From positions 682,001 through 746,000 of the forward strand of contig NZ_CP008896.1 of the NCBI RefSeq assembly GCF_000730425.1: a stretch of 64,000 bases of DNA, in the 5' to 3' direction. This DNA is from Pseudomonas fluorescens (GTDB lineage Bacteria > Pseudomonadota > Gammaproteobacteria > Pseudomonadales > Pseudomonadaceae). The notes under the pieces were generated by a model that made no database searches, had not been told where the DNA came from, and saw only the letters and a list, made by a program, of their open reading frames with translations. The translations under genes and the position numbers were made by a program. Positions 45,040 through 57,609 of the stretch are shown piece by piece; the stretch's first letter is position 1, and each line of letters opens with the position of its first letter.

Positions 45040-45420
45040 TTATCCCTTGGCCGCCATTGCCGTGACTTCCACCCGCATGCCTTCGACCGCCAACGAGGCC
45101 ACGCCAACCGCCGCGCGTACCGGCCAGGGTTTGGCGAAGAAGCGCTTGTATACCTCGTTGAATGCTGCGCGCTCGGCCATATCGGTAAGGTAGATGGTCA
45201 AGTGCATGACCCGGTCCATGGAGCTGCCGGCACGTTCAAGGGCCACCTTGAGGGCTTGCAGGGTGCATTCGCTTTGCACCGTGATATCGCCCAGTTCCAG
45301 GCTGCCGTCGGCACGCACCGGGATCTGCGTGGAGACCAGGATGCCGTTGAAGCCGATGACGTCGGAGGAAATCGAGTCGGGGTCGAGGTCAGGGGTGAAG
45401 TCAAGATCGTGGTTGGCCAT
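45040..45420 (-). CDS. RidA-family enamine/imine deaminase
   Basis: 126-aa Rid protein. The catalytic arginine is present in WPVRAAVGVASL, and the acidic strand VEVTAMA follows, so it fits active RidA-type deaminases that hydrolyse reactive enamines and imines. It is the last gene in the same direction as the tryptophan/aromatic catabolic train, 115 bp after the permease. It could serve that pathway by removing an amino group, or be an independent housekeeping gene. Confidence 0.88.
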   Translation of the reverse strand: MANHDLDFTPDLDPDSISSDVIGFNGILVSTQIPVRADGSLELGDITVQSECTLQALKVALERAGSSMDRVMHLTIYLTDMAERAAFNEVYKRFFAKPWPVRAAVGVASLAVEGMRVEVTAMAAKG

Positions 45421-45535
45421 GGGTATTCTCAGGTTCTGGAACGGGGGGGCAGTTTAGCCGGGCGTTGGAGTGACTCCTATCTGATTTTGCCGCCAGGGTA
45501 GCCTTGTGCCTGCACACAAGGCCGCAACGCTGCTC

Positions 45536-46942
45536 TCAAGGGGTCTGCGCCTGCGCATCCTTGTGCCGGCGCTGGCCGGGAATTTTCCGGTAGGCCAGGT
45601 AAAGGCCGAGCAGCCAGACGGGCAAGATCATCACCGAAATTTGTACGGCGGGTATGAACGCCATGGTCAGCAAGATCCCCAGCACCGAGGCGATACACAA
45701 ATAGTTGCTCAACGGTGAAAACGGCGCAGGGAAGCCCTGGGGTTGTGCCGCACGCCGGGCTTGCTTGAATTTCAAGTGAGTGAGGCTGGTAAGCACCCAG
45801 TTGATCACCGTGATGGCAACGGCGAGGGCCATCAGCAACTCAAGGGTCCCATTGGGATAGAGAAAGTTAAGCCCGACGGCCACGACGGTGATGATGGCCG
45901 TGACGAACTGGGCGTTCACCGGAATCCCATGTTTGTTGAGTTTCAGCAGCTTGGTCGGGGCGCTGCCCTGTTGTGCCAGGCTGTGCAACTGGCGCGTGCT
46001 GCAATAGACCACACCGTTGTAAACCGAGAGCGCTGCGGTGAGTACCACGAAGTTCAGAATATCTGCCGCGTGGGTACTGCCGATCAGGCTGAGGATTTTT
46101 ACAAACGGGCTGGCACTGTAGGCATCGCCGCCGGAGTTCAGCGCGTCAACGAGGCTGTTCCAGGGAATCAGGGACAGCATCACCAGTAGTACACCGATGT
46201 AGAAAACAGCAATCCTGAACAGCACCTGGTTGACGGCGCGGGGGATGGTTTGCCTCGGGTTTTCGGTTTCTCCGGCCGCAAACCCGACCATTTCCAACCC
46301 ACCAAAGGCAAACATGATAAATGGCAAGGCCAGCACGATCCCGGAAATGCCATAGGGCATGAACCCGCCGTGTGCCCAGAGGTTGTTCACGCTGGCACCG
46401 GGCACCGAGTCGGTAGTGAGCAAATACACACCAAAGCCGATCATCAACACAATGGCCACCACCTTGACCAGGGAAAAGGCGAACTCCACCTCACCAAAGA
46501 CCCTGACATTGAGCGTATTGAGGATATTGATCAGCAGGAAGAATCCGGTTGCGCTCATCCAGAGCGGGATGTCCGGGAACCAGTAATGGACGTATTTACC
46601 CAGTGCCGTAAGCTCGGCCATGCCGACCAACAGGTACATCGCCGCATAGTTCCAACCGGCGAGAAAGCCAAAGAAGCGCCCACAGTACTTGCCTGAAAAG
46701 TGGCTCAGGGAACCGGACACCGGTTCGTCAACGAGCATTTCACCCAATTGCCGCATCATCAGGAAGGCGATCAGGCCGGCGAATGCATAACCCAATATCG
46801 CGGCAGGCCCCGCCGCCTTGATCACTCCGGCGCTGCCAAGAAATAGCCCGGTACCGATTGCACCACCGAGGCCGATCATCTGGATGTGACGCCCGGAGAG
46901 GTTGCGGCGAAGCTGTTGTGCTGGCTGTTGTGATCCGCTCAT
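45536..46942 (-). CDS. Amino acid permease (AroP/ProY-type APC transporter)
   Basis: 468-aa inner-membrane permease with about 12 hydrophobic segments. The amino-acid transporter signature opens the protein (LRRNLSGRHIQMIGLGGAIGTGLFLGSAGVI, then LGEMLVDEPVSGSLSHFSGKYCGRFFGFLAGWNY). The AroP/PheP/ProY branch is the best fit. Position within the tryptophan operon suggests tryptophan, hydroxytryptophan or kynurenine as substrate. It begins 87 bp after the maleate isomerase gene. Confidence 0.88.
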   Translation of the reverse strand: MSGSQQPAQQLRRNLSGRHIQMIGLGGAIGTGLFLGSAGVIKAAGPAAILGYAFAGLIAFLMMRQLGEMLVDEPVSGSLSHFSGKYCGRFFGFLAGWNYAAMYLLVGMAELTALGKYVHYWFPDIPLWMSATGFFLLINILNTLNVRVFGEVEFAFSLVKVVAIVLMIGFGVYLLTTDSVPGASVNNLWAHGGFMPYGISGIVLALPFIMFAFGGLEMVGFAAGETENPRQTIPRAVNQVLFRIAVFYIGVLLVMLSLIPWNSLVDALNSGGDAYSASPFVKILSLIGSTHAADILNFVVLTAALSVYNGVVYCSTRQLHSLAQQGSAPTKLLKLNKHGIPVNAQFVTAIITVVAVGLNFLYPNGTLELLMALAVAITVINWVLTSLTHLKFKQARRAAQPQGFPAPFSPLSNYLCIASVLGILLTMAFIPAVQISVMILPVWLLGLYLAYRKIPGQRRHKDAQAQTP

Positions 46943-47029
46943 GTTTCCTCACTGTATTTGTTATATCGCGAACGCAGGTCGGCCCGGCGCCGCAGAGATT
47001 GAGGGCAGCGTAAAAATTCGTGGGTGTGT

Positions 47030-47788
47030 TCAGTAAGCGCCGGACAACAGGGTGCCAAAGCCGTCAATACGGGTGGGTAACCCCAGTTTTTTCAACATTT
47101 GGTAGGTGGTGGCAATCGAGGACGACAGCACCGGTATGTTTTCCCTGTCTTCAATGATCTGCACGGATTGCAGCGAGGGCATCTGTACACAAGCCGAGGC
47201 AATGATTGCGTCGACGTTGTGGGTGATCAGTTGCTTGGTGATCTCCACCGGCGCCAGGGGCGAGCGGTTGGCAACCTCCAGGTTGTCGGCAATCTCCAGG
47301 GAGATGCTGTCGACGACCTCGATCCCTTCGTTTTCGAGGTAGTCGATGACCAGCCGGGTCAACGGCTTCATGTAAGGCGTGAGCAGGGAAACTTTCTTCG
47401 CTCCCAGGGCCTTGATGCCCTCGACCAGGGCGCCGGCGCTGGTGACCACAGGGGCGGCAGCGTTGTTTTCGAGGGTGCGCGTGTGCAGGCGCTGCTCGGA
47501 GACCCGGTGATAGCCCAAGCCCATGCTCATGATTGCGACGAGGCAGGCGTAGCCAAGCACATCGACGCGGGCATCCGAGAGCTCCAGGGCGCAGCGATCA
47601 CTGTCGCTGTCCATGCGCTGGAGTTCTTGTGCGGTCACCTGTTTCATCCGCATGCGACTTGAGTGAAAGGTGAAGCGCTCTGGGTAGAGGCCTTCCCGAG
47701 CACGCAGTATCTGCGGGATTTCGGTCTCCATGGTGGTGTTGGAGCTGGGGACAATCTGGCCTATACGGATAATCTTGTTGGCTTGCAC
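47030..47788 (-). CDS. Maleate cis-trans isomerase (NicE/MaiA-like)
   Basis: 252-aa Asp/Glu racemase-superfamily enzyme that converts maleate to fumarate. It resembles NicE of nicotinate degradation across its whole length: IGQIVPSSNTTMETEIP at the start, FHSSRMRMKQV, and LLSGAY at the end. Both catalytic cysteines are at the family positions, Cys82 (GYACLVAIMSMG) and Cys200 (ASACVQMPSL). Maleate is made only by a few ring-cleavage pathways, so this gene strongly constrains the pathway of the operon. It lies 5 bp after the amidohydrolase gene. Confidence 0.9.
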   Translation of the reverse strand: MQANKIIRIGQIVPSSNTTMETEIPQILRAREGLYPERFTFHSSRMRMKQVTAQELQRMDSDSDRCALELSDARVDVLGYACLVAIMSMGLGYHRVSEQRLHTRTLENNAAAPVVTSAGALVEGIKALGAKKVSLLTPYMKPLTRLVIDYLENEGIEVVDSISLEIADNLEVANRSPLAPVEITKQLITHNVDAIIASACVQMPSLQSVQIIEDRENIPVLSSSIATTYQMLKKLGLPTRIDGFGTLLSGAY

Positions 47789-47793
47789 GAACC

Positions 47794-48810
47794 TTACTCC
47801 TCTGCTGAAAGCGATGCCTCGCCCCCTCCAGCGCCGGGCTGGGGGAAGTCGTCGACGAACTGCACAGGGCTCAATACGCGGCGGTTGACCGTGAGCCCGA
47901 ATATGTCAAAGCGGTTGTAGTGCCCGGTGATGTCATGCATTTGCCGAGGCTGGATACACCGGGACAGATCAATGTCGGCGTAGGCGATACCCTCCCGGTC
48001 GATCAGCGGCTCGCCCAGCACTCGCCCATCAGGGCCAAGAAAACCACTGAAGGCGCTGTTGGGGCGGCTCAGCAGTTGGCGGGCGTCGGGGTTGAGCGTT
48101 TCCATGTGCTCGATGATCTCTTCGGAAATCGTCGAGCAAGAAACAACGGTGAAGACTTTGCCTTCAAAGGAGTGAGCAGCCGCTCGAAGTTGGATGGCCT
48201 GCGCCATGTCGTAGTCAGGTGGGGCGACCGGCAAGGCGATGTAGCTGGCGACATGCACCATTTCACCCTGGGCTAGCAGGGCAAAGCGTGCAAGCGTGTT
48301 GGTGTTCTCGCCGCAGGCCAGCGACCCCAGTGCACCGACACTGGTGTGGTGAACCTGCAACGCAGAAGCGTCGCCGGCCGCCCAGGTGAGTTTTTCCGCC
48401 CAGGTAGGTACCAGTTTGCGGTGCGCGCCCAGCACCACGCCCTGATCGGAAATGGTCACCAGGGTGTTATAGAGCGTACCGACACTGTGCGCCGCGCGCT
48501 CATTCACGCCGATGACCACGTTGATCTTGTAACGGGCGGCGGCGTTGGCCAGTTTGCTGATTTGCGGCCCGGGGATCTGGATCGCGGTCTTTACCAGGCG
48601 TTCAAACCAGGGACTCCCTTGCAGCGGGTTGGCAATCCAGTTCCAGTAGGGGTAAGCGGCCACGAACACTTCAGGGAAGGCAATCAGTTTCGCACCGTTG
48701 CCCGCGGCTTCTTTCATCAGCCCGATAGCTTTATCCAGGGTCGCCTGTACATCCAGAAAGACCGGCGATGCCTGCACCGTTGCGGCGCGAAACTCATGAA
48801 AATCGAACAT
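47794..48810 (-). CDS. Nitrilase-superfamily C-N hydrolase (possible maleamate amidohydrolase)
   Basis: 338-aa nitrilase-fold hydrolase with triad Glu47 (AFPEVFVAAYPYW), Lys132 (GAHRKLVPTW) and Cys166 (ACGENTNTLAR). By sequence it falls near aliphatic nitrilases; the residue after Cys is Gly, not the Trp common in true nitrilases. In this operon the logical reaction is hydrolysis of an amide such as maleamate, giving maleate for the adjacent isomerase. That is an inference from context. The start ATG 48810 has a perfect GGAGGT. The frame continues upstream inside the next gene without similarity. Confidence 0.82.
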   Translation of the reverse strand: MFDFHEFRAATVQASPVFLDVQATLDKAIGLMKEAAGNGAKLIAFPEVFVAAYPYWNWIANPLQGSPWFERLVKTAIQIPGPQISKLANAAARYKINVVIGVNERAAHSVGTLYNTLVTISDQGVVLGAHRKLVPTWAEKLTWAAGDASALQVHHTSVGALGSLACGENTNTLARFALLAQGEMVHVASYIALPVAPPDYDMAQAIQLRAAAHSFEGKVFTVVSCSTISEEIIEHMETLNPDARQLLSRPNSAFSGFLGPDGRVLGEPLIDREGIAYADIDLSRCIQPRQMHDITGHYNRFDIFGLTVNRRVLSPVQFVDDFPQPGAGGGEASLSAEE

Positions 48811-48850
48811 GGCAACCTCCGTCAAAAAGTGGGCCTTGGGGCCCGTTCGG

Positions 48851-49792
48851 TCAGCAATCACGGCCTGCCCGCGGGTCGTTGCCCACGGCAACCACCGGGT
48901 TGCGCAGGTAGCCAATCTGCTCGATTTGCGCCTCGATAACGTCACCGGGCCACACCCACTCCTGGGGCGTACGGCCGGCACCGACACCTTCAGGCGTGCC
49001 CGTGGCGATGATGTCGCCAGGTTCGAGAGTGATGCCTTGGGAGATATCGGCAACCAGCGTCGCGACGTCAAACAGCATGTGCCGGGTGTTGGAACTCTGT
49101 TTGGTGACGCCATTGACCTTGAGGCTCAAGTCGAGCACCTGGGGGTTTTCGATCTCATCTGCCGTCACGATCACCGGCCCGAATGGCGCGTAGGTATCCT
49201 GGCCTTTGGAATAGATCCATTGGCCGGCGCGGCGGCAATCCCGGGCGCTCATATCGATCATCAGGCTGTAGCCGAAGACGTGTTGCAGCGCCTGCTCAAC
49301 GCCCACGCCTTTAGCCGTCGTGCCAATGATCACCGCCAGTTCCACTTCCCAGTCCAATTGACGGGTGATCGCCGCGTTATGCTCGATCGCATCGCCTGGA
49401 CCAATGACCGTGGTGGGCGGCTTGGAGAAGATCACCGGCGCCTTGGGCAGCTCGTTGGCGGTGTCCAGTGATTTGCTCGACTCTGTGACATGCTCCACGT
49501 AGTTCAGGCCGATGCCGAAGATGTTCTTTCGTGGCCGGGGAATCGGCGCCAACAGTTTGACCGTCGACAAGCTATGGCTGACGCCGGCGGGCAGCCCCTG
49601 TTCATAACGGGCCAACACCCGGTAGGCCGCCTCAAGGCCGGGCCGCCCCAGGTCGATAAAGGCCAGCATCGAGTCAGGCAGTGACTCGCCGGCGTGAGCG
49701 GCGAGGGCACACAGGTCGATGACCCGCTCGTCAACAAGAACGCCCAGAACGGCGGGCGCGCAGATATCAGTTCTGTAGGTAACCAGTCGCAT
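48851..49792 (-). CDS. Fumarylacetoacetate hydrolase family enzyme (acylpyruvate hydrolase-like)
   Basis: 313-aa FAH-family protein. A short N-terminal domain precedes the metal-dependent core (IFGIGLNYVEHVTES, PPTTVIGPGDAIEHNAAITRQLDWEVELAVIIGTTAKGV, then LEPGDIIATGTPEGVG). The acidic metal ligands in DWEVELA and the invariant GTPEGVG loop are intact. The family cleaves C-C bonds of acylpyruvates, for example maleylpyruvate or fumarylpyruvate to a C4 acid and pyruvate, which suits its place after a gentisate-type dioxygenase. ATG 49792 is used, with AGAGGTT; an upstream in-frame codon at 49825 would overlap the previous gene. Confidence 0.9.
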   Translation of the reverse strand: MRLVTYRTDICAPAVLGVLVDERVIDLCALAAHAGESLPDSMLAFIDLGRPGLEAAYRVLARYEQGLPAGVSHSLSTVKLLAPIPRPRKNIFGIGLNYVEHVTESSKSLDTANELPKAPVIFSKPPTTVIGPGDAIEHNAAITRQLDWEVELAVIIGTTAKGVGVEQALQHVFGYSLMIDMSARDCRRAGQWIYSKGQDTYAPFGPVIVTADEIENPQVLDLSLKVNGVTKQSSNTRHMLFDVATLVADISQGITLEPGDIIATGTPEGVGAGRTPQEWVWPGDVIEAQIEQIGYLRNPVVAVGNDPRAGRDC

Positions 49793-49821
49793 TTCTAACC
49801 TCTGACGGCAATTGGCAAAAA

Positions 49822-50946
49822 TCAAACCAAGGGTTGTTGACCGTGGTTGTCGAGAAGACCTTCCTCCCGATACAGCCCCAGGGCCGTGATGACAGGCAGG
49901 TCGTTGAAACAGAACAGGCAGGCGTCATCGCTTGCACTCAGGTTGACGTGCTCATGCCAGGCCCAGGAGGGGACACAGAAAATGTCACGGGCTTGCCAGT
50001 CGAAACGCTGGCCGTTGATGACCGAGTAGCCGTTGCCCTTGGCTACCTGATACAGGAAGCTGCCGGTGTGCCGGTGGGCTTTGCCAACGAAGCCAGGCCG
50101 CAGCAACTGCATGCTCGCACCGATTGTGGGCATGACCGGGCCGCCGGTGACCGGGTTGGTGTAGTGCATCAGGGCATCGTCATAGACACTGCCTGGCGTA
50201 CTTTGCGAAAAGCGCTTCAGCGCGTCATAGGTGGCCTGCCACTCGTACTTGAACAGCGGGGAGTAGGGCTTGTTCCAGCCGACGTTGTCCGGCCTCAGGC
50301 TGTTGGCCCCCCAAATCGCCGAGGAATCGTTGAGTGCATAGCCGACAGTTTGTGCCAACTGCGGATGAACCTCATAGAACCCGGCCTCCAGCGCATTGAC
50401 CAGCGGGATATCCAGCCCGTCCTGCCAGATACAGATCTCGCCATCGGCCTCGACACCGTGTTCATGCCATGTGCCATTGGGCGTGAGCACGAAGTCATTT
50501 GCGCCCAAAGTGATCTTGTGCCCGTCAACGATGGTGTAAGCACCCCGGCCCTCCATGATGAAGCGCAGGGCCGATGCCGAATGCCGGTGTGCCGAGGCGG
50601 CTTCGCCGGGGTGCATGACTTGCAGGCCGGCGTACAGCCAGCCGACGGCGGCAGACACCTGCTGGCGCCCGGGATTGTTCAGGTAGATGACCCGTCGCCC
50701 GGCTTTCTCGGGCGTGACCAGCTCCACGGAACGCAACACATGCGGGCGCAGTTGTTGATAACGCCAGAGCACGGGAACGGACTCAGAGCACGGTTGCCAG
50801 GGCTCGATCTTGTTTGCCACCGTCCATAAGGCGCCGGCCTTCAACGCCTCCAGTTCCTGGTAATAGGCCACCAGCTCAGGCGTTACTTCGACATCAGCGC
50901 GGCCGGCAACCGCTTCGCGATGCTGTCCGTAATCAATGTTTTCCAT
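49822..50946 (-). CDS. Gentisate 1,2-dioxygenase-like bicupin (candidate 5-hydroxyanthranilate dioxygenase)
   Basis: 374-aa bicupin of the gentisate/salicylate/1-hydroxy-2-naphthoate dioxygenase family. The first cupin has SAHRHSASALRFIMEGRGA. The second has KAHRHTGSFLYQVAKGNGY and later SWAWHEHVN. Both HxH iron motifs and the late His are present. The family opens rings between the carboxylated carbon and its ortho hydroxyl- or amino-bearing carbon. Placement directly after kynureninase points to an anthranilate derivative; with a 2-amino group the product would be an amide. ATG 50946 has GGAGA upstream; ATG 50958 is an alternative. Confidence 0.87.
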   Translation of the reverse strand: MENIDYGQHREAVAGRADVEVTPELVAYYQELEALKAGALWTVANKIEPWQPCSESVPVLWRYQQLRPHVLRSVELVTPEKAGRRVIYLNNPGRQQVSAAVGWLYAGLQVMHPGEAASAHRHSASALRFIMEGRGAYTIVDGHKITLGANDFVLTPNGTWHEHGVEADGEICIWQDGLDIPLVNALEAGFYEVHPQLAQTVGYALNDSSAIWGANSLRPDNVGWNKPYSPLFKYEWQATYDALKRFSQSTPGSVYDDALMHYTNPVTGGPVMPTIGASMQLLRPGFVGKAHRHTGSFLYQVAKGNGYSVINGQRFDWQARDIFCVPSWAWHEHVNLSASDDACLFCFNDLPVITALGLYREEGLLDNHGQQPLV

Positions 50947-51066
50947 AGCTTTCTCCATTCGCTTGCCCCCTCATGCAGCCGTTGGCAGGAAACCTTGGGC
51001 AGCACAAACCCATCGCCTCGTAATGTGTGACGAGGCGTCGAGTGAAGGGCGGGGCGTTTCTAGAAC

Positions 51067-52260
51067 CTAGGTAAAGTCGCGGCGCTGCTGATAGGCCGGT
51101 TTATCCCAGGCGCGGGTGTCCATGATCAGTTTGATTTCGCTGAGCAGTTCGCACACATCCTGTTCATTGTTGTACAAGGGGGCGAAACCAAAGCGCATGT
51201 AGTCGGGTGTGCGGAAGTCACCGATGTAACCGCGCAAGGCCAATTCCTGCATGATCCCGTAGCCCTGTTGGTGTCGCAGCGAAACATGGCTGCCGCGCTT
51301 TGCGGCCTCGCGGGGCGAGGCGAGGTGAAAACCAAGCCCGACGAGCTCGGTGTCGACACCGTCGATGAATTGCCCGGTCAGGACCACGCTACGCGCGCGG
51401 ATCTCCTGCATATCAACACCATCGAACTCATCGAGCGCCCTGGAAAGGACCGACAGCCCGATGACCGGGTTGGTACCGCAGAGGAACCGCGACACACCTT
51501 CAGCCGGCGTGTAGTCCTGGCTGAAATCGAACGGGCGTGCGTGCCCGAACCAGCCGGCAAGGGGTTGCTCGCACTTGTCCAGATGCCTGGCTGCAGCGTA
51601 AAGATAGGCGGGGGCGCCCGGGCCGCCATTGAGGTACTTGTAGCCACATCCCACTGCGAAGTCGACATTGTCCGCCTCCAGGTTGCAGGGAACACCGCCG
51701 GCGGTATGGGACAGATCCCAGACAATCAGCGCACCGACCCCGTGGGCCTGCCGGGTGTATTGGCCCATGTCATAGATCTCGGCGCTGCGGTAATCGACAT
51801 GGGTCAAGACTACGGTTGCCACCTGTTCATCCAGATGCGACGCAATCTGCGCCGCCGGGACAGCAACCACCTTGAGGTCAAACAGCCTGGCCACCTGGTA
51901 GACGATGTACAGGTCGGTGGGGAACGCGTCGGCGTCGGTGACAATCGTGTTGCGACCAGGGCGCAGCCGCACGGCACTGACCAGCACTTTAAACAGGTTG
52001 GCCGAAGTCGAGTCGCACGCCACGACGTGGGCGGGCTGGGCACCGATCAGGCGCGCGACCTTTTGCCCGACCGTCTGTGGCAACACGCGCCATTGGGCCT
52101 CGTGCCACGACCGAATCAGCCCCTGGGCCCACTGTTTTGTCACCACTTCGTTGACGTGGGATGCCACCGCGCCAGGCATCAAACCCAGGGAGTTGCCGTC
52201 AAAGTAACGCACGCCTTCGGGCACATGAAAGCGTGCGCGTGTTTGTTCGAATTTGTTCAT
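51067..52260 (-). CDS. kynU: Kynureninase
   Basis: 397-aa PLP enzyme that splits kynurenine (or hydroxykynurenine) to anthranilate (or hydroxyanthranilate) and alanine. Family landmarks are YFDGNSLGLMP at the N-terminus, VLTHVDYRSAEIYDM, WDLSHTAGGVP, and the PLP-lysine motif GCGYKYLNGGPGAPAYLY. C-terminal FGFAPLYNNEQDV matches too. It starts 26 bp after the dioxygenase gene and shares its transcript. An AGGGAATAGGT stretch precedes ATG 52260. Confidence 0.96.
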   Translation of the reverse strand: MNKFEQTRARFHVPEGVRYFDGNSLGLMPGAVASHVNEVVTKQWAQGLIRSWHEAQWRVLPQTVGQKVARLIGAQPAHVVACDSTSANLFKVLVSAVRLRPGRNTIVTDADAFPTDLYIVYQVARLFDLKVVAVPAAQIASHLDEQVATVVLTHVDYRSAEIYDMGQYTRQAHGVGALIVWDLSHTAGGVPCNLEADNVDFAVGCGYKYLNGGPGAPAYLYAAARHLDKCEQPLAGWFGHARPFDFSQDYTPAEGVSRFLCGTNPVIGLSVLSRALDEFDGVDMQEIRARSVVLTGQFIDGVDTELVGLGFHLASPREAAKRGSHVSLRHQQGYGIMQELALRGYIGDFRTPDYMRFGFAPLYNNEQDVCELLSEIKLIMDTRAWDKPAYQQRRDFT

Positions 52261-52286
52261 ACCTATTCCCTAATAGACCGGCGTAA

Positions 52287-53228
52287 TCAGGCGCCCAGAA
52301 CCGTTCTGATCGTCCACAGTTCCGCAAAGAAGCGGTGTTCTACGACGTGCTTCAACCAACCGACACCCGCCGAGCCACCGGTACCCGGCTTGAAGCCCAG
52401 AATGCGTTCGACTGAAGTGAAATGCCTCCAACGGTATTGGGCAAAAAGATCGGAAATCTCGATCAGGCATTCGCCGAGTGCGTAAAGCCGGTTTTCAGGG
52501 CAAGGGGTCTTGTACACCTCTAGCCAGGCCTGCTCCACGCCTTCGTTGAGGGTGTAGGTTTCACTCCAGTCCCGCTCCAGTGCCGACTGCGGAACGGCAA
52601 TCCCTTGGCGGTGGAGCAGGGCCAGAACGTCGTCATACAGGCTCGGCTCGTTCAACGCCTTGAACAGCTGCGGATAGACATCCGGGTTGTTCTCGTGCGC
52701 CTTGGCCAGGGTGACCGACTTATTGCCAAGGATGAACTCGACGTGGCGGTACATGTACGACTGCTGTCCGGAGGAGACACCCAGGCAATTGCGAAACTCA
52801 TTGAAACCTTCGGTCGTGATGGTCGACAGCACATCCCAGGATTTGATCAGGTACTCAAATAGCTTTTTGATTCGAGGAGCCAGCTCCAGAGCACCTTCAA
52901 TATCGTCATTTTTGATCCGCTGTTGCAGGTTGTAGGCTTCATAGTGAATCGCCTTGAAAATGAGTTCCTTGGTTTGCGTCATGATGATGAACACCATCTC
53001 ATCATGCCCCTCGCTGCGCATGTTCTGCATGCTGAGCAATAGATCGTTGCGGTGGTAGTCGATGTACGGGTTGCTCTTGCCATCGAACGCAATCAGCGGC
53101 TCTCCATCAGTGGTTTTCACCGTTTCATTGCGGGACGCATTGGTTGAGATACTGATGTTGCGCACCAGGCTGAGCTCCAGTTCGGGTGCACGGACGTTGG
53201 GGATGACTCGTTTGCGTTGAATGCTCAT
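52287..53228 (-). CDS. kynA: Tryptophan 2,3-dioxygenase, divergent
   Basis: 313-aa heme dioxygenase opening the indole ring of tryptophan to N-formylkynurenine. The proximal heme ligand is His269 (RWRHFTSVERILGFKPGTGGSAGVGWL). Substrate-binding Tyr and Arg are kept in SGQQSYMYRHVEFILGNK. In the canonical block HQTxELWFK the distal histidine is replaced: here the segment reads MTQTKELIFK, with Thr84 at the His position and Ile for Trp. The N-terminal 50 residues are unusual. A GTG at 53237 overlapping the formamidase stop is an alternative start. The changes suggest altered substrate range, for example 5-hydroxytryptophan; this is inference. Confidence 0.9.
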   Translation of the reverse strand: MSIQRKRVIPNVRAPELELSLVRNISISTNASRNETVKTTDGEPLIAFDGKSNPYIDYHRNDLLLSMQNMRSEGHDEMVFIIMTQTKELIFKAIHYEAYNLQQRIKNDDIEGALELAPRIKKLFEYLIKSWDVLSTITTEGFNEFRNCLGVSSGQQSYMYRHVEFILGNKSVTLAKAHENNPDVYPQLFKALNEPSLYDDVLALLHRQGIAVPQSALERDWSETYTLNEGVEQAWLEVYKTPCPENRLYALGECLIEISDLFAQYRWRHFTSVERILGFKPGTGGSAGVGWLKHVVEHRFFAELWTIRTVLGA

Positions 53229-53233
53229 GTCAA

Positions 53234-54061
53234 TCACAGGCTCGCTAAAGTGACACTCAGTAAGTGGCTGTCTGGTTTGTCAAACTCAAACAGGATGTCG
53301 AAATGATCGACGTCGTTTATTTGATAACAACCGGCACGTACGCCTTGCTCCAGCAGGAACTCGCAATAGGTTTGACTTTGCTGTTTGAACGCCCAGGTTT
53401 CGTACTCGCCGTAGCAGAGCGTCACGGGGAAGGGCGTCCTGGCCCGCTGTAGCCCCGGGCTGAGTCCGGTTGCCGAGTGCAGATCCAGGTGCAGTGGGGC
53501 GTTGATATAGGTCTCTACCAAGGGGCGCAGGTCGTAGATGCCGGAGATCAGCAAGCCCGCGCGAATGGGGCAGGGCACGCAGCCGAGGCTGTGCCAATCG
53601 ACATGCATCATCATGGCGCACAGGTGGGCACCGGCCGAACTGCCGGCTACCACGATGGGCAAGCCGGGGTGCTGTCGGCGGATGGCCACAATTGCCGTTG
53701 CGCATTGCTGCACCATGTCGCCAATCGTGGCGTGCGGGGCCAGCCTATAGTTGAGCGCGGCGTAGGCCCAATCGTGCTGCAGGAATGGCCCGGCCATGAA
53801 GCACGTGTCAAACGCTGACAATGCCTGCCAGTAGCCGCCATGTATGAAGACCAGGACAGCTTTCGTCCTGCCTGAGGCGGGCTCAAACAGCAGGGCATAT
53901 TCATCCTCCGCCAGGCCGTAGGCGATCTGTCGGTTCGGATAGTGCGACAGTGCCTGATCGCTTTTAGAGGCATACAGCTGGACTGTCTGCTCGTAGCACC
54001 TCGCGGCGGTGCTGGGCGAATAGGCTTGTTCAAGCTCACTGGGTTTTTTATTAGTGTTCAT
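53234..54061 (-). CDS. Kynurenine formamidase, eukaryotic-like alpha/beta hydrolase type (AFMID)
   Basis: 275-aa alpha/beta hydrolase with the HGGxW oxyanion motif (FIHGGYWQA, His74-Trp78) and nucleophile elbow GSSAG (Ser142). A late Asp/Glu lies in YGEYETWAFKQQ and His in VDHFDILFEF. This is the architecture of arylformamidases of the AFMID family, which hydrolyse N-formylkynurenine. The usual Pseudomonas KynB is an unrelated metal-dependent cyclase-family enzyme, so a non-homologous enzyme fills the step. It is first gene of the minus-strand operon, 167 bp from the divergent regulator. Confidence 0.88.
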   Translation of the reverse strand: MNTNKKPSELEQAYSPSTAARCYEQTVQLYASKSDQALSHYPNRQIAYGLAEDEYALLFEPASGRTKAVLVFIHGGYWQALSAFDTCFMAGPFLQHDWAYAALNYRLAPHATIGDMVQQCATAIVAIRRQHPGLPIVVAGSSAGAHLCAMMMHVDWHSLGCVPCPIRAGLLISGIYDLRPLVETYINAPLHLDLHSATGLSPGLQRARTPFPVTLCYGEYETWAFKQQSQTYCEFLLEQGVRAGCYQINDVDHFDILFEFDKPDSHLLSVTLASL

Positions 54062-54228
54062 GACACCTCCCTTGTTATGCCCAGTTTATGCCTGGCATGC
54101 AGAACGTTTTTTTCTATTTCTGCCTGATCGGGAGGCCCACCAGAAATGATTTTGCTGATCCGGGGCTTCTGACGTAAATTCGTCTCTTTGCGACCCAGCG
54201 CAGTCGACATCGTCCTTCGAGGCCCGTT
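54062..54228. promoter_or_regulatory. Divergent promoter region of the tryptophan catabolic operon
   Basis: This 167-bp gap must hold both promoters. Two inverted repeats are visible: ATGCC-T-GGCAT (54088-54098) and ATTTCTG...CAGAAAT (54116-54122 and 54141-54147). Either could be an operator for the Lrp-type regulator; T-rich DNA (TTTTTTTCTATTTC) lies between them. Confidence 0.45.
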
Positions 54229-54702
54229 ATGAGCGAGACGCTAACCACCTTTGACCTGAGCATCCTGGCGCACCTGCAGACAGACCCAAGGATGTCGATG
54301 ACCAGCCTGGCCGAGCGGATGAACAGCTCGGTATCGCCTTGCTGGCGACGGGTCAAGCGTATGGAGGAGCAAGGGGTTATTTGCGGATACGACCTAAGGT
54401 TGGACAGGAAGGCACTGGGCCTGGGAATCGAGGCGTTTGTCTTCGTCAACATCACCTCACACCTTGAAAAGGATGCCGCCGAGTTTGAGGCATCGCTGCA
54501 ATCGATCGATCAGATCCTGGAGTGTTACATCCTCTCGGGTAACGAGGACTATCTGCTGAAGATCGTCGCGGCAGACCTGGATGCGTTCGCGAGTTTCAGC
54601 CGCAGGGTCCTCGCGGCGCTTCCACATGTCGAAGAAGTGCGCAGCGCGTTCGTCATGCACAAGATCAAGCAGAGCAGCAGATTGCCGATACCGCGCGGCT
54701 AG
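54229..54702 (+). CDS. Lrp/AsnC-family regulator of the kyn operon (KynR-like)
   Basis: 157-aa Lrp-type regulator with an HTH (LSILAHLQTDPRMSMTSLAERMNSSVSPCWRRVKRMEEQGVICGYDLRL) and RAM domain (ILECYILSGNEDYLLKIVAADLDAFASFSRRVL). Divergent placement beside kynurenine genes matches KynR, which activates kyn genes in response to kynurenine in P. aeruginosa. Here it may sense kynurenine or a hydroxylated analogue. The TniABQ element begins soon after its stop codon. Confidence 0.92.
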   Translation: MSETLTTFDLSILAHLQTDPRMSMTSLAERMNSSVSPCWRRVKRMEEQGVICGYDLRLDRKALGLGIEAFVFVNITSHLEKDAAEFEASLQSIDQILECYILSGNEDYLLKIVAADLDAFASFSRRVLAALPHVEEVRSAFVMHKIKQSSRLPIPRG

Positions 54703-54824: not shown

Positions 54825-54934
54825 GAACGTGACGTCGTATCGTGTTCGGCAGCCAATTTCGATCGTTGATAGAGACTGATGTAAGTCGCCGCTCGGCAGA
54901 CTTCGCCTAGATTAGCGTTGTGGAGAGTACATCC

Positions 54935-56752
54935 ATGGCAAATCAGCTAACCCCTGGGGAACTCATTGTCGCCAAGGGAAAAGTTGCGAAAGTCAAACAG
55001 GTATTTAGTGACAAAACGATAAGGGTAACAATTGTCGACTCTGGTGAAGTAATACTGGTGTCGGCGCGCGACATTCAGCGAATCCCTAGTGTTACGGCAA
55101 TTAATGGTAGTGATCATGGGGAGGGTTTGAATGTCAATGATTACACCGTTGATCAACTTTCATTGGCAGCTGAGCGTTTTGAAATTATCAGAAAGTGGAA
55201 GGTTGAGGGAGGGGTAGTCACTAAGTACTGTTCTTTACTGGGTGTATCAAAGAGTTACTTCTATCGTTTGGCTAAAATTTTTGACGCTGACGTAGGCCCA
55301 CTATCTTTAATTGCGCAGACACGGGGTGTCAAGAAAGGCGTTACGAGACTGGATGAGTCGGTTGAGGTCATAATTTTCAAGGCTGCTAAAAAATTCAAGT
55401 CGAAAGGAGCCAGCTACAGCAAAGTGTGGAGCGAGGTGGATGTTGCATGTAAGGAGCAAGGTTTTTCATGCCCTTCCAAAGATACGGTATTGAGGCGTGT
55501 ACGCTTAATCCTCTCAGAAAAAACAAGAATGAGAATTAAAGAAGGTCCTGATGCCGCGACGCAAGAATTTTCAGCTCGCCCGGGTAAAAAAAATCTTGAA
55601 AGGCCGCTGCAATGGGTACAGATGGATCACACCCTCGTCGATATAATTCTGTTGGCTGATGATCGCATAAATATTATTGGACGCCCGTGGCTGACAATTG
55701 TAATTGATGTCTATACCAGGGTTATTCTTGGTTACTATCTTAGCCTTTACGTCCCGTCTACTGTTTCAGTGGCTTGCGCTCTTAGTCATTCTGTCCTTCC
55801 TAAAGTAAACTTTTCGGCAAGTGTTGGCTTGGATCCAGAAGACTACCCCTACTATGGAAAGCCTGAAGTCCTTCATATGGACAATGCCGCAGAGTTCACC
55901 AGCCCAAAATTTAAAGTAGGGTGTGAATCTTTTGGGATTTCCCCCGAATACCGACCTGTAGGAAGAAAACATTTTGGCGGTCATGTTGAACGGCTGATAG
56001 GCACGTTCATGACTACTAAGGTGCATTTCTTGCCGGGGACTACAATGTCAAATTCTGTTGCGCGCAGAGGACTTAACAGCGAAAGAAATGCAACCATGAC
56101 CTTCTCTGATTTTTTTCGCTGGTTCTCTCGCGAAGTAGTTGTCTATCACTCAACAGTTCATAGCGCATTAAAGTGTAGCCCGCGACAAGCGTGGACAAAC
56201 TATTTCGCGCCCAACGGAGGGCTTCCTTACCCCCCGGCAGGCTTGAATTCCGAGCAATTAAAGATTTGGTTCATGCCTCAAGAAGACCGAAAAATTAATC
56301 CTGGTGGCATTAATTTGCATGGCCAAGTTTATTGGGATCCTATATTGGGGTCTCATGTGGGGACTAGAAATGTCATAGTCAAATATGACCCGTACGATAT
56401 GAATGTTGTATGGGTGAAATTGGATGGCCAATTTTGCCCAATACACCTGTCTGACGTAACCGTTGAGGCTCCTACCTATGAGGAATATCGTGCCGGCAAG
56501 CTCTATCGTCACCCAGTCCGCATCGGAGCCATAGATAGTGATGGCGGGTTAAAAGCCTACAGAGGGAAGCAAAAAATTGAAGAGGAAAGTAAAAAGTTAA
56601 CGCAGAAGGAAAGACGCCGAGAGGCCGCTGAAAAAGTCTATACTGAGGCAAATCCAAATCCTAGAAGTAGTAGCTTTAACGCTGACAGGGAACATATCAA
56701 GCCAAATTATTCAGCCTCTCCAAAAAAATTTCGACCTGGGGATGAGTCATGA
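54935..56752 (+). CDS. tniA: TniA/TnsB-like DDE transposase
   Basis: 605-aa Mu/TnsB-type integrase. N-terminal helix-turn-helix regions cover about 60-180 (LAAERFEIIRKWKVEGGVVTKYCSLLGVSKSYFYRLA). The rve core follows with catalytic Asp in WVQMDHTLVDI, Asp in VLHMDNAAEFTSPKF and Glu in GGHVERLIGTFM. The C-terminal Mu-type domain and a basic lysine-rich tail follow. It catalyses strand transfer. ATG 54935 has GGAGAG 7 bp upstream; GTG 54920 is an alternative. The stop overlaps tniB (ATGA). Confidence 0.92.
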   Translation: MANQLTPGELIVAKGKVAKVKQVFSDKTIRVTIVDSGEVILVSARDIQRIPSVTAINGSDHGEGLNVNDYTVDQLSLAAERFEIIRKWKVEGGVVTKYCSLLGVSKSYFYRLAKIFDADVGPLSLIAQTRGVKKGVTRLDESVEVIIFKAAKKFKSKGASYSKVWSEVDVACKEQGFSCPSKDTVLRRVRLILSEKTRMRIKEGPDAATQEFSARPGKKNLERPLQWVQMDHTLVDIILLADDRINIIGRPWLTIVIDVYTRVILGYYLSLYVPSTVSVACALSHSVLPKVNFSASVGLDPEDYPYYGKPEVLHMDNAAEFTSPKFKVGCESFGISPEYRPVGRKHFGGHVERLIGTFMTTKVHFLPGTTMSNSVARRGLNSERNATMTFSDFFRWFSREVVVYHSTVHSALKCSPRQAWTNYFAPNGGLPYPPAGLNSEQLKIWFMPQEDRKINPGGINLHGQVYWDPILGSHVGTRNVIVKYDPYDMNVVWVKLDGQFCPIHLSDVTVEAPTYEEYRAGKLYRHPVRIGAIDSDGGLKAYRGKQKIEEESKKLTQKERRREAAEKVYTEANPNPRSSSFNADREHIKPNYSASPKKFRPGDES

Positions 56753-57609
56753 GTGATGAGCACGTCCGGTCGGACATCAGAAAATATTTGTCTTCTAATA
56801 TTGATACGCGAATAGCCTTAATTCATCAAGAAATATGGGTGAACAATAACTCTAGTGCAGCTGTTTTTCGCATGATGAATAATATCGCGGATGTACCAGA
56901 TCGTATGAGTGCGCCTGCTTTGCTTGTGGTTGGCCCAGGTGGCTCTGGAAAGACGGCTATAATATCTAAGATTCCAAACCATGTAAAAAGGAGTGCAGGG
57001 TTGATTTTTGTCTCCTTGGCTGCATCCCCAGAAATAGATACCAAAAAAAGCCTTAAAGATGAGATAGCTTTAGCGCTCGGAATACCAGTTGGCTCTGGCT
57101 CAAGTCGCCGAAGTAGCTCTGACCTGCCAAGCGAGATTAGAGAGGTTATTAGGCTGAGGCAAATTTGGGGGCTGGTGATCGACGAGTTTCATGATGCACT
57201 GCTACGCTCGAAGCAAGAGCAGCGTTTTAACATGTCTATTCTTAAAAAGCTGCTCGGCCCTGAATATGGATTGAAACTATTTTGCTTTGGCACTGCTAGT
57301 GCGCGCAACGCACTTAAATCCAATTATGAATTTAAGAGACGTTTTCACGAAGTTGCTCTTGATGACTGGATAGAGAGTGAGGAGTTCAGGTCATTCCTCT
57401 TGGAGGTAGAGGAGTCCCTACCGCTAAAACAGCCATCACATTTGTACTCTGAGGAGATGGTAGGCACTATTTTATCTATGTCGAATGGGCGCATGGACAA
57501 AACACTCGAATTGATAAGGGCGGCTGCCTGTTATGCCATAAAAATGGGGGGGGAGAAGGTGGATGTTGATATGCTGCGGCGAGCAAACAAGAATCCTTGG
57601 GGCTATTAG
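56749..57609 (+). CDS. tniB: TniB/TnsC-like AAA+ ATPase
   Basis: 286-aa AAA+ protein with Walker A VVGPGGSGKTAIISK, Walker B WGLVIDEFHDAL, sensor-like FCFGTASARNALKSN and a helical C-terminus (GTILSMSNGRMDKTLELIRAA). It links the target selector TniQ to the transposase and imposes target choice. ATG 56749 overlaps the tniA stop by 4 bp, implying translational coupling. Confidence 0.92.
   Translation: MSDEHVRSDIRKYLSSNIDTRIALIHQEIWVNNNSSAAVFRMMNNIADVPDRMSAPALLVVGPGGSGKTAIISKIPNHVKRSAGLIFVSLAASPEIDTKKSLKDEIALALGIPVGSGSSRRSSSDLPSEIREVIRLRQIWGLVIDEFHDALLRSKQEQRFNMSILKKLLGPEYGLKLFCFGTASARNALKSNYEFKRRFHEVALDDWIESEEFRSFLLEVEESLPLKQPSHLYSEEMVGTILSMSNGRMDKTLELIRAAACYAIKMGGEKVDVDMLRRANKNPWGY

Follow-up and report, generated by a model that had tools for sequence, protein, structure and literature searches.

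According to passages of PMC3534580, Arthrobacter Rue61a does not grow on 5-hydroxyanthranilate and converts it cometabolically, and the 5-nitrosalicylate dioxygenase of Bradyrhizobium is, in the passages available of PMC10306065, inactive on the same compound. Among the open-licence papers listed, and as far as their titles, abstract openings and passages go, none describes the operon reported here or a bacterial route from 5-hydroxytryptophan to maleamate. This operon was found in Pseudomonas fluorescens and consists of nine minus-strand genes, from a formamidase gene (54061) to a RidA gene (45040), in the window, that is, the whole stretch of 64,000 nucleotides analysed (C1:682001-746000 of a one-contig 6.06-Mb genome). 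We consider it probable that the operon is dedicated to the catabolism of a 5-hydroxylated tryptophan, with 5-hydroxy-L-tryptophan as the likeliest candidate; this compound would be degraded through 5-hydroxyanthranilate and maleamylpyruvate to fumarate, all substrates and products being predicted from the sequence.

Gene content and proposed pathway

The operon and the regulator gene divergent from it contain the following genes (window positions):

54229-54702, plus strand: Lrp/AsnC-family regulator, divergent from the operon (Pfam PF01037/PF13412)
53234-54061, minus strand: alpha/beta hydrolase, predicted N-formyl-(5-hydroxy)kynurenine formamidase (Pfam BD-FAE/Abhydrolase_3; HGGYW at residue 74, GSSAG at 140)
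52287-53228, minus strand: divergent tryptophan 2,3-dioxygenase (TDO)-family protein, predicted 5-hydroxytryptophan 2,3-dioxygenase (PF03301)
51067-52260, minus strand: kynureninase, predicted to release 5-hydroxyanthranilate and alanine (TIGR01814; best solved match 1qz9)
49822-50958, minus strand: bicupin ring-cleavage dioxygenase, predicted 5-hydroxyanthranilate 1,2-dioxygenase (nearest solved structure 3bu7)
48851-49792, minus strand: FAH-family hydrolase, predicted maleamylpyruvate or maleylpyruvate hydrolase (PF01557)
47794-48810, minus strand: nitrilase-superfamily amidohydrolase, predicted amidase on maleamate or maleamylpyruvate (PF00795)
47030-47788, minus strand: maleate cis-trans isomerase (4fq7, E=2e-103; Amdase fold)
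45536-46942, minus strand: AroP-like amino-acid permease, predicted aromatic amino acid uptake (PF00324)
45040-45420, minus strand: RidA-type protein, operon membership uncertain (PF01042)

The permease would import 5-hydroxy-L-tryptophan, the divergent TDO would open its indole ring to give N-formyl-5-hydroxykynurenine, and the formamidase would release formate to leave 5-hydroxykynurenine, from which the kynureninase would produce 5-hydroxyanthranilate and alanine. The bicupin would then break the ring bond that joins C1 to the amino-bearing C2, giving the amide maleamylpyruvate. The FAH hydrolase and the amidase, in either order, would yield pyruvate, ammonia and maleate, with maleamate as the intermediate if the FAH hydrolase acted first, and the isomerase would convert maleate to fumarate, so that the overall end products would be fumarate, pyruvate, alanine, ammonia and formate. 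A maleamate route had been proposed in the first-pass annotation of this DNA; it is still the best-supported reading, with independent evidence from a second module, from the TDO family and from gene linkage, except that the amidase could precede the FAH hydrolase. That annotation had overlooked how unusual the TDO is and that the genome contains a second module.

The entry compound had been given as 5-hydroxytryptophan or a hydroxykynurenine. A 5-hydroxylated entry is favoured, and 5-hydroxytryptophan appears likelier than 5-hydroxykynurenine because the TDO and a formamidase homologue are conserved in the related loci. A hydroxykynurenine would have to be the 5-isomer; 3-hydroxykynurenine, the common isomer, would give 3-hydroxyanthranilate, which is not used by this chemistry.

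The individual proteins were compared with family models and solved structures. The kynureninase passed the TIGR01814 model (284.3 bits, cut-off 246.4), and the ring-contact residues of 1qz9, which we take to be W64, G281 and T282, look unchanged in the alignment and are uninformative on the 5-hydroxyl. In the bicupin, which at 265.4 bits stayed below the cut-off of 650 of the model for the 5-aminosalicylate dioxygenase MabB (NF049978), HRH and WHEH motifs are found in each cupin domain, and the three-His iron site and the outer-shell Gln, His and Asp are present, as judged from these motifs and from the alignment to 3bu7, 2d40 and 2phd. The Gln and Asp positions, proposed in passages of PMC4019311 to handle the 5-hydroxyl of gentisate in gentisate dioxygenase, are thus retained, in agreement with a 5-hydroxylated substrate. 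The FAH protein matched 31 solved sequences, the maleylpyruvate hydrolase 6jvv among them. The nitrilase-fold protein (CN_hydrolase, 125 bits) contains the motifs FPEV, HRKL and ACGEN, whose Glu, Lys and Cys presumably form the catalytic triad, and the isomerase, nearest to the solved maleate cis-trans isomerase 4fq7, keeps both Cys positions (YACLV and SACVQ). For the permease the nearest NCBIfam model was AroP, at 539.6 bits below the cut-off of 848; an 80% identical protein is encoded in the closest relative cluster (L038), and different permeases occur in other loci.

Every gene of the minus-strand train claimed in the first-pass annotation was present, with family matches, with no internal stops and with a G+C-biased third codon position. 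The intergenic gaps from the formamidase through the isomerase gene are 5, 26, 108, 29, 40 and 5 nt, sizes which fit one transcription unit, and are followed by gaps of 87 nt (isomerase-permease) and 115 nt (permease-RidA). The starts chosen were 48810 for the nitrilase gene, in place of the start of a 439-aa open reading frame (ORF), the ATG at 49792 for the FAH gene, and 53228 (ATG) or 53237 (GTG) for the TDO gene. A consensus scan returned no sigma-70-like site where 3.4 would be expected, and 14 terminator-like sites, mostly intragenic, against an expectation of 8.7 (standard deviation 3.2). The operon adjoins a transposon-like element, since genes for a Mu-transpos_C transposase and a TniB-type ATPase (window 54920-57609), of lower G+C, begin 218 nt past the Lrp regulator gene. 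The closest cluster fetched by name was that of Pseudomonas sp. C2B4, and the closest named bicupin, among the best 120 of 3955 matches, was that of Pseudomonas sp. GZD-222 (95% identical).

The divergent dioxygenase family and its gene neighbourhoods

The TDO of the window scored 306.8 bits against TIGR03036, below the cut-off of 390.7. Such a divergent TDO is carried by all 13 genomes compared (the window genome and those behind the 12 scanned loci described below), with scores of 279.7-316.1 bits, all below the same cut-off, and in seven of these genomes a second TDO of at least 425 bits, above the cut-off, is also present. The divergent TDO is about 40% identical to canonical ones, and in the tree the 13 divergent proteins formed one side of a branch with support of 100/99. 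A TDO match was obtained in 27 of the 149 genomes of the genus sample, of the divergent kind in two (the window genome and G142), and in 108 of the 398 genomes of the phylum sample, of the divergent kind only in the window genome; in the latter sample the window genome's own TDO scored 719 bits and the next best 235.7 bits (44% identical).

In the alignment, all 40 of the other TDOs have Leu, His and Phe at positions 28, 55 and 126 (XcTDO numbering), residues that none of the 14 divergent ones has there. Position 28 is His in 12 and Gln in two of the latter, a residue that was partly selected for, as one of the two scan patterns (IDYHRNDL) includes this His; position 55 is Thr in 11, Ala in one and Gly in two, and position 126 is Gln in all 14. 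The window TDO has H/T/Q. Arg117 and His240, which we take to be the carboxylate binder and the haem ligand, respectively, are kept in all 14 proteins. Position 55 presumably contacts the indole nitrogen, and position 28 is presumably contributed by the neighbouring subunit. Indoleamine dioxygenase, in which a small residue corresponds to position 55, accepts 5-hydroxytryptophan. Judged by sequence, the divergent TDOs are a separate family with altered positions, the pocket argument being based on the alignment to XcTDO only. Besides the partial selection of His at position 28, two results call for caution: an enrichment of the pocket among group-specific positions was unsupported (3 of 12 positions assumed to line the pocket, 24 in 259 columns; Fisher p=0.09), and the canonical-residue TDOs of L112 and L113 also fell below the NCBI cut-off, so that this failure is not peculiar to the divergent group.

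The joint change of three positions shows only that substrate or binding differs. It would also suit the entry of a differently modified tryptophan or indole amino acid that bears an electron-donating group at C5, or of exogenous 5-hydroxykynurenine, as would the Q/G/Q combination of Ensifer L131 (plasmid NZ_CP098809) and L048, a TDO subgroup with no bicupin found nearby, whose substrate may differ. We regard an entry of this sort as improbable, since the carbon logic of the isomerase and FAH steps needs an oxygen at C5, and 5-hydroxytryptophan would be the simplest compound to provide it. In the Ensifer locus a formamidase, the TDO and a kynureninase are present, and no bicupin was matched within 12 kb; the L048 contig measures 5.8 kb.

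When named genome contigs were scanned with the first two divergent TDOs, 12 loci were obtained, from Pseudomonas, Burkholderia, Paraburkholderia, Sphingomonas, a Bradyrhizobiaceae metagenome-assembled genome (MAG), Embleya and an Acidimicrobiales MAG. The bicupin and FAH genes stand beside the divergent TDO gene in 10 of the 12, across two phyla. A kynureninase was found in nine, a formamidase homologue in nine (about 7 kb from the TDO gene in L046), a nitrilase of at least 63% identity in nine (L046 has one of 35%) and the isomerase in seven. None of the four module genes (bicupin, FAH, nitrilase and isomerase) was found in the seven above-cut-off TDO loci of the same genomes (17-20 kb each), and the contrast between 10 of 12 divergent and none of seven canonical loci for the bicupin and FAH genes argues that the grouping is not due to chance. 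The comparison of neighbourhoods in other genomes that had been called for at the outset thus bears the association out. Gene order varies among L038, L039, L042, L044, L046 and L047, and an Lrp homologue lies in a like divergent position in seven of the 12 related loci (L038-L042, L044 and L049). The contig of the Bradyrhizobiaceae MAG (L045) begins just before the TDO gene, with the last part of a class I/II aminotransferase gene directly in front of it at the contig start (L045:1-1423).

The second module and the origin of the 5-hydroxyl group

A second module is located at C1:1.646-1.653 Mb in the same gene order, its nitrilase, FAH, bicupin and isomerase being 72%, 72%, 78% and 77% identical, respectively, to those of the operon. 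It is adjoined by genes for a thioesterase and for a FAD monooxygenase-OYE (FMO-OYE) fusion, with those for two indolepyruvate-oxidoreductase-like subunits upstream. The fusion protein passed the NCBI model for a bifunctional salicylyl-CoA 5-hydroxylase/oxidoreductase (1278.7 bits, cut-off 1078). This locus (L006, C1:1638001-1658000), in which genes for an MFS transporter and a MarR regulator were also found, possibly encodes an anthranilate-type route that depends on CoA and finishes with the cleavage of 5-hydroxyanthranilate; like clusters are L095 (which ends within the nitrilase gene), L120, L121 and L127. According to passages of PMC3534580, 5-hydroxyanthraniloyl-CoA is a product of the 2-aminobenzoyl-CoA monooxygenase/reductase reaction when NADH is limiting. 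Its hydrolysis would yield 5-hydroxyanthranilate, at which both entries would plausibly meet. The strongest argument for 5-hydroxyanthranilate as the node compound is that thioester hydrolysis at the second locus and the kynureninase of the operon would yield the same product.

Two other readings of the second locus were considered. A salicylyl-CoA/gentisate reading would leave the amidohydrolase unexplained. An iad-type auxin locus, suggested by L122 with its Rieske-type oxygenase and CoA-ligase genes, was not adopted, since one flank in the own genome is a hydroquinone dioxygenase set: genes for a hydroquinone 1,2-dioxygenase large subunit, an aldehyde dehydrogenase and an iron-type alcohol dehydrogenase lie near the second module (L129, C1:1624001-1638000). 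The auxin papers PMC9613470 and PMC12633357, in the parts available, stop at anthranilate and contain no gentisate, maleate or cupin terms.

Both arrangements coexist in Embleya scabrispora (L047 and L103, with sister bicupins) and in P. gessardii (L044 and L095). In the bicupin tree, TDO-side proteins (11) and FMO-OYE/indolepyruvate-oxidoreductase-side proteins (6) interleave, with five label changes, at least three of them forced by supported branches, and the changes were like those of shuffled labels (312 of 500 as low). Such interleaving is expected if both arrangements use one substrate. The 3bu7 protein grouped with L123 (100/100) and fell inside the module bicupins once E. coli 2d40, a very long branch, was added. 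In the Ruegeria pomeroyi megaplasmid NC_006569 (L133) the 3bu7 gene is flanked by a nitrilase-family gene on one side and by FAH and Asp/Glu racemase genes on the other, and indolepyruvate-oxidoreductase-like and thioesterase genes are also near, suggesting that the physiological substrate of 3bu7 may be other than gentisate. Strong nitrilase matches (E <=1e-100) were rare, being obtained in 5 of 398 phylum, 1 of 369 class and 3 of 398 genus genomes, the own genome included each time, with at most five candidates scored per genome.

Gentisate enters the argument in another way, since 5-hydroxyanthranilate might first be deaminated to it, an order proposed for Nocardia opaca in passages of PMC4539516; the bicupin would then be an ordinary gentisate dioxygenase and the nitrilase-fold enzyme would have another role. 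Gentisate dioxygenase is indeed the best named family of the bicupin and the name borne by 3bu7, its nearest solved relative, and the close nitrilase is missing from some plasmid bicupin loci. However, the bicupin reached only 323.6 bits against the gentisate dioxygenase model TIGR02272 (cut-off 442.1; paralogue 314.8). No deaminase gene is found in the operon, and the amidohydrolase, needless for gentisate, is kept in nine of the 12 divergent-TDO loci and in several paralogous modules. We accordingly give prior deamination a slim chance.

The main rival to 5-hydroxytryptophan as the substrate is tryptophan itself: the operon would still cleave 5-hydroxyanthranilate, but this would come from anthranilate through a C5 hydroxylase whose gene lies outside the operon, such as the second-locus FMO-OYE with anthraniloyl-CoA as its substrate. 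In its favour, the own genome contains no other match to the TDO or the kynureninase of the operon, and a full-length FMO-OYE is encoded somewhere in 10 of the 13 divergent-TDO genomes. On the Rhodococcus plasmid NZ_AP026692 (L132), genes for a TDO, a kynureninase-like protein, an FAH protein, a small cupin, two thioesterase-family proteins, a CoA ligase and a salicylyl-CoA 5-hydroxylase lie together; its TDO retains L/H/F, unlike the divergent TDO of the operon, which has no hydroxylase gene, a contrast that speaks for the 5-hydroxytryptophan reading, and the cluster looks like a tryptophan version with its own hydroxylase, possibly a full route via 5-hydroxylated anthranilate. In Embleya sp. 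NBC_00888 (L140/L141) an L/H/F TDO and a kynureninase, with an amidohydrolase-like ORF (by eye) between their genes, are joined to the full module; no hydroxylase was seen among the ORFs listed for some 34 kb of the 50-kb stretch, nor was an FMO-OYE match obtained in the 5.7-Mb replicon, the replicon searched.

The first-pass claim that no hydroxylase is present holds for the operon, within which no hydroxylase gene was found, nor a ligase or thioesterase gene, which tells against the tryptophan alternative. Its extension to any related cluster was dropped, given various oxidoreductases near L036, L039 and L045-L048: a luciferase-like monooxygenase about 4 kb past the FAH gene in L045, a P450 in L047 at a distance of about 8.5 kb beyond the TDO gene, an FMO-like flavoprotein adjoining the TDO gene on the opposite strand in L048, and FAD oxidoreductases in L036, L039 and L046, the last also with a flavin reductase. 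None is common to all loci, as judged from a Pfam scan of nine suspicious ORFs and, for the remaining ORFs of L036, L038-L043 and L045-L049, from the BLAST label and by eye. The full-length FMO-OYE adjoins its own module in three of the 10 genomes (L006, L095 and L103, the last also with a CoA ligase gene) and has no module gene nearby in the other seven (L096-L102, L102 being a 10.6-kb contig), and only partial matches were found in G149, G153 and G159; the composite operon seems not to need it, although an FMO-OYE encoded elsewhere may contribute. Furthermore, the seven genomes with an above-cut-off TDO retain it besides the divergent one, whose residues differ. On balance we judge the tryptophan alternative unlikely, while giving it more weight than the two alternatives considered above.

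Besides the Embleya, FMO-OYE and oxidoreductase observations and the name of 3bu7, several findings on gene content weigh against a dedicated 5-hydroxytryptophan operon. The isomerase is missing from L040, L043, L045, L046 and L048 (the L048 contig being short and that of L045 beginning close to the TDO gene), and in L043 the TDO stands as an orphan. Eight plasmid bicupin loci were read, of 62 records with a match: the close nitrilase and the isomerase occur together in only three (L133, L137 and L140), whereas the nitrilase of L136, L138 and L139 is about 33% identical and no isomerase was matched in these loci, and L134 and L135 have neither, L135 being interrupted by transposon genes. Finally, RidA had been counted as an operon member in the first-pass annotation; the gene is present, but it may not belong, because it lies 15 nt from the next gene, for a U32 peptidase, and no RidA homologue was found in L038.

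A broader conclusion, about which we are evenly divided or slightly doubtful, is that the divergent TDOs are an unrecognised haem dioxygenase family specific for 5-hydroxytryptophan, tied to a module whose bicupin turns 5-hydroxyanthranilate straight into an amide and which also serves a second, CoA-dependent anthranilate-type route in the same genomes, and that 3bu7, whose gene sits in such a cluster, may itself be a 5-hydroxyanthranilate dioxygenase.

Significance and relation to described pathways

Since 5-hydroxytryptophan is the serotonin precursor, its complete consumption by bacteria would, if confirmed, link soil and host microbes to that precursor. It would also provide a first substrate for a TDO family that models would name, if at all, ordinary tryptophan dioxygenase, and a physiological role for a bicupin module with members named gentisate dioxygenase or NADPH dehydrogenase among the best 120 of 3955 matches.

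With the kynurenine-anthranilate pathway (kynA, kynB, kynU) the operon shares the first three reaction types and a divergent Lrp-type regulator, as in six of the seven canonical TDO loci; it differs in its divergent TDO, in the alpha/beta-hydrolase formamidase and in the added ring-cleavage module, found in none of those seven loci. The predicted end of the route, from maleamate through maleate to fumarate, is that of the NicF/NicE steps of the nicotinate (nic) pathway, whereas the amidase here belongs to the nitrilase superfamily and NicF has another fold. The second locus shares the FAD monooxygenase-OYE fusion with the 2-aminobenzoyl-CoA pathway (anthraniloyl-CoA monooxygenase/reductase) and adds to it a thioesterase and the bicupin module, suggesting that the ring of the free acid is opened oxygenolytically. 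The Bradyrhizobium 5-nitrosalicylate dioxygenase is likewise a cupin that opens the ring of a substituted ortho-hydroxybenzoic acid, but it is a monocupin. The gentisate pathway (gentisate 1,2-dioxygenase, maleylpyruvate hydrolase) shares with the operon the bicupin cut between the carboxyl carbon and C2 and an FAH-family hydrolase, but the predicted substrate here bears an amino group, so that the operon additionally encodes an amidase and a maleate isomerase.

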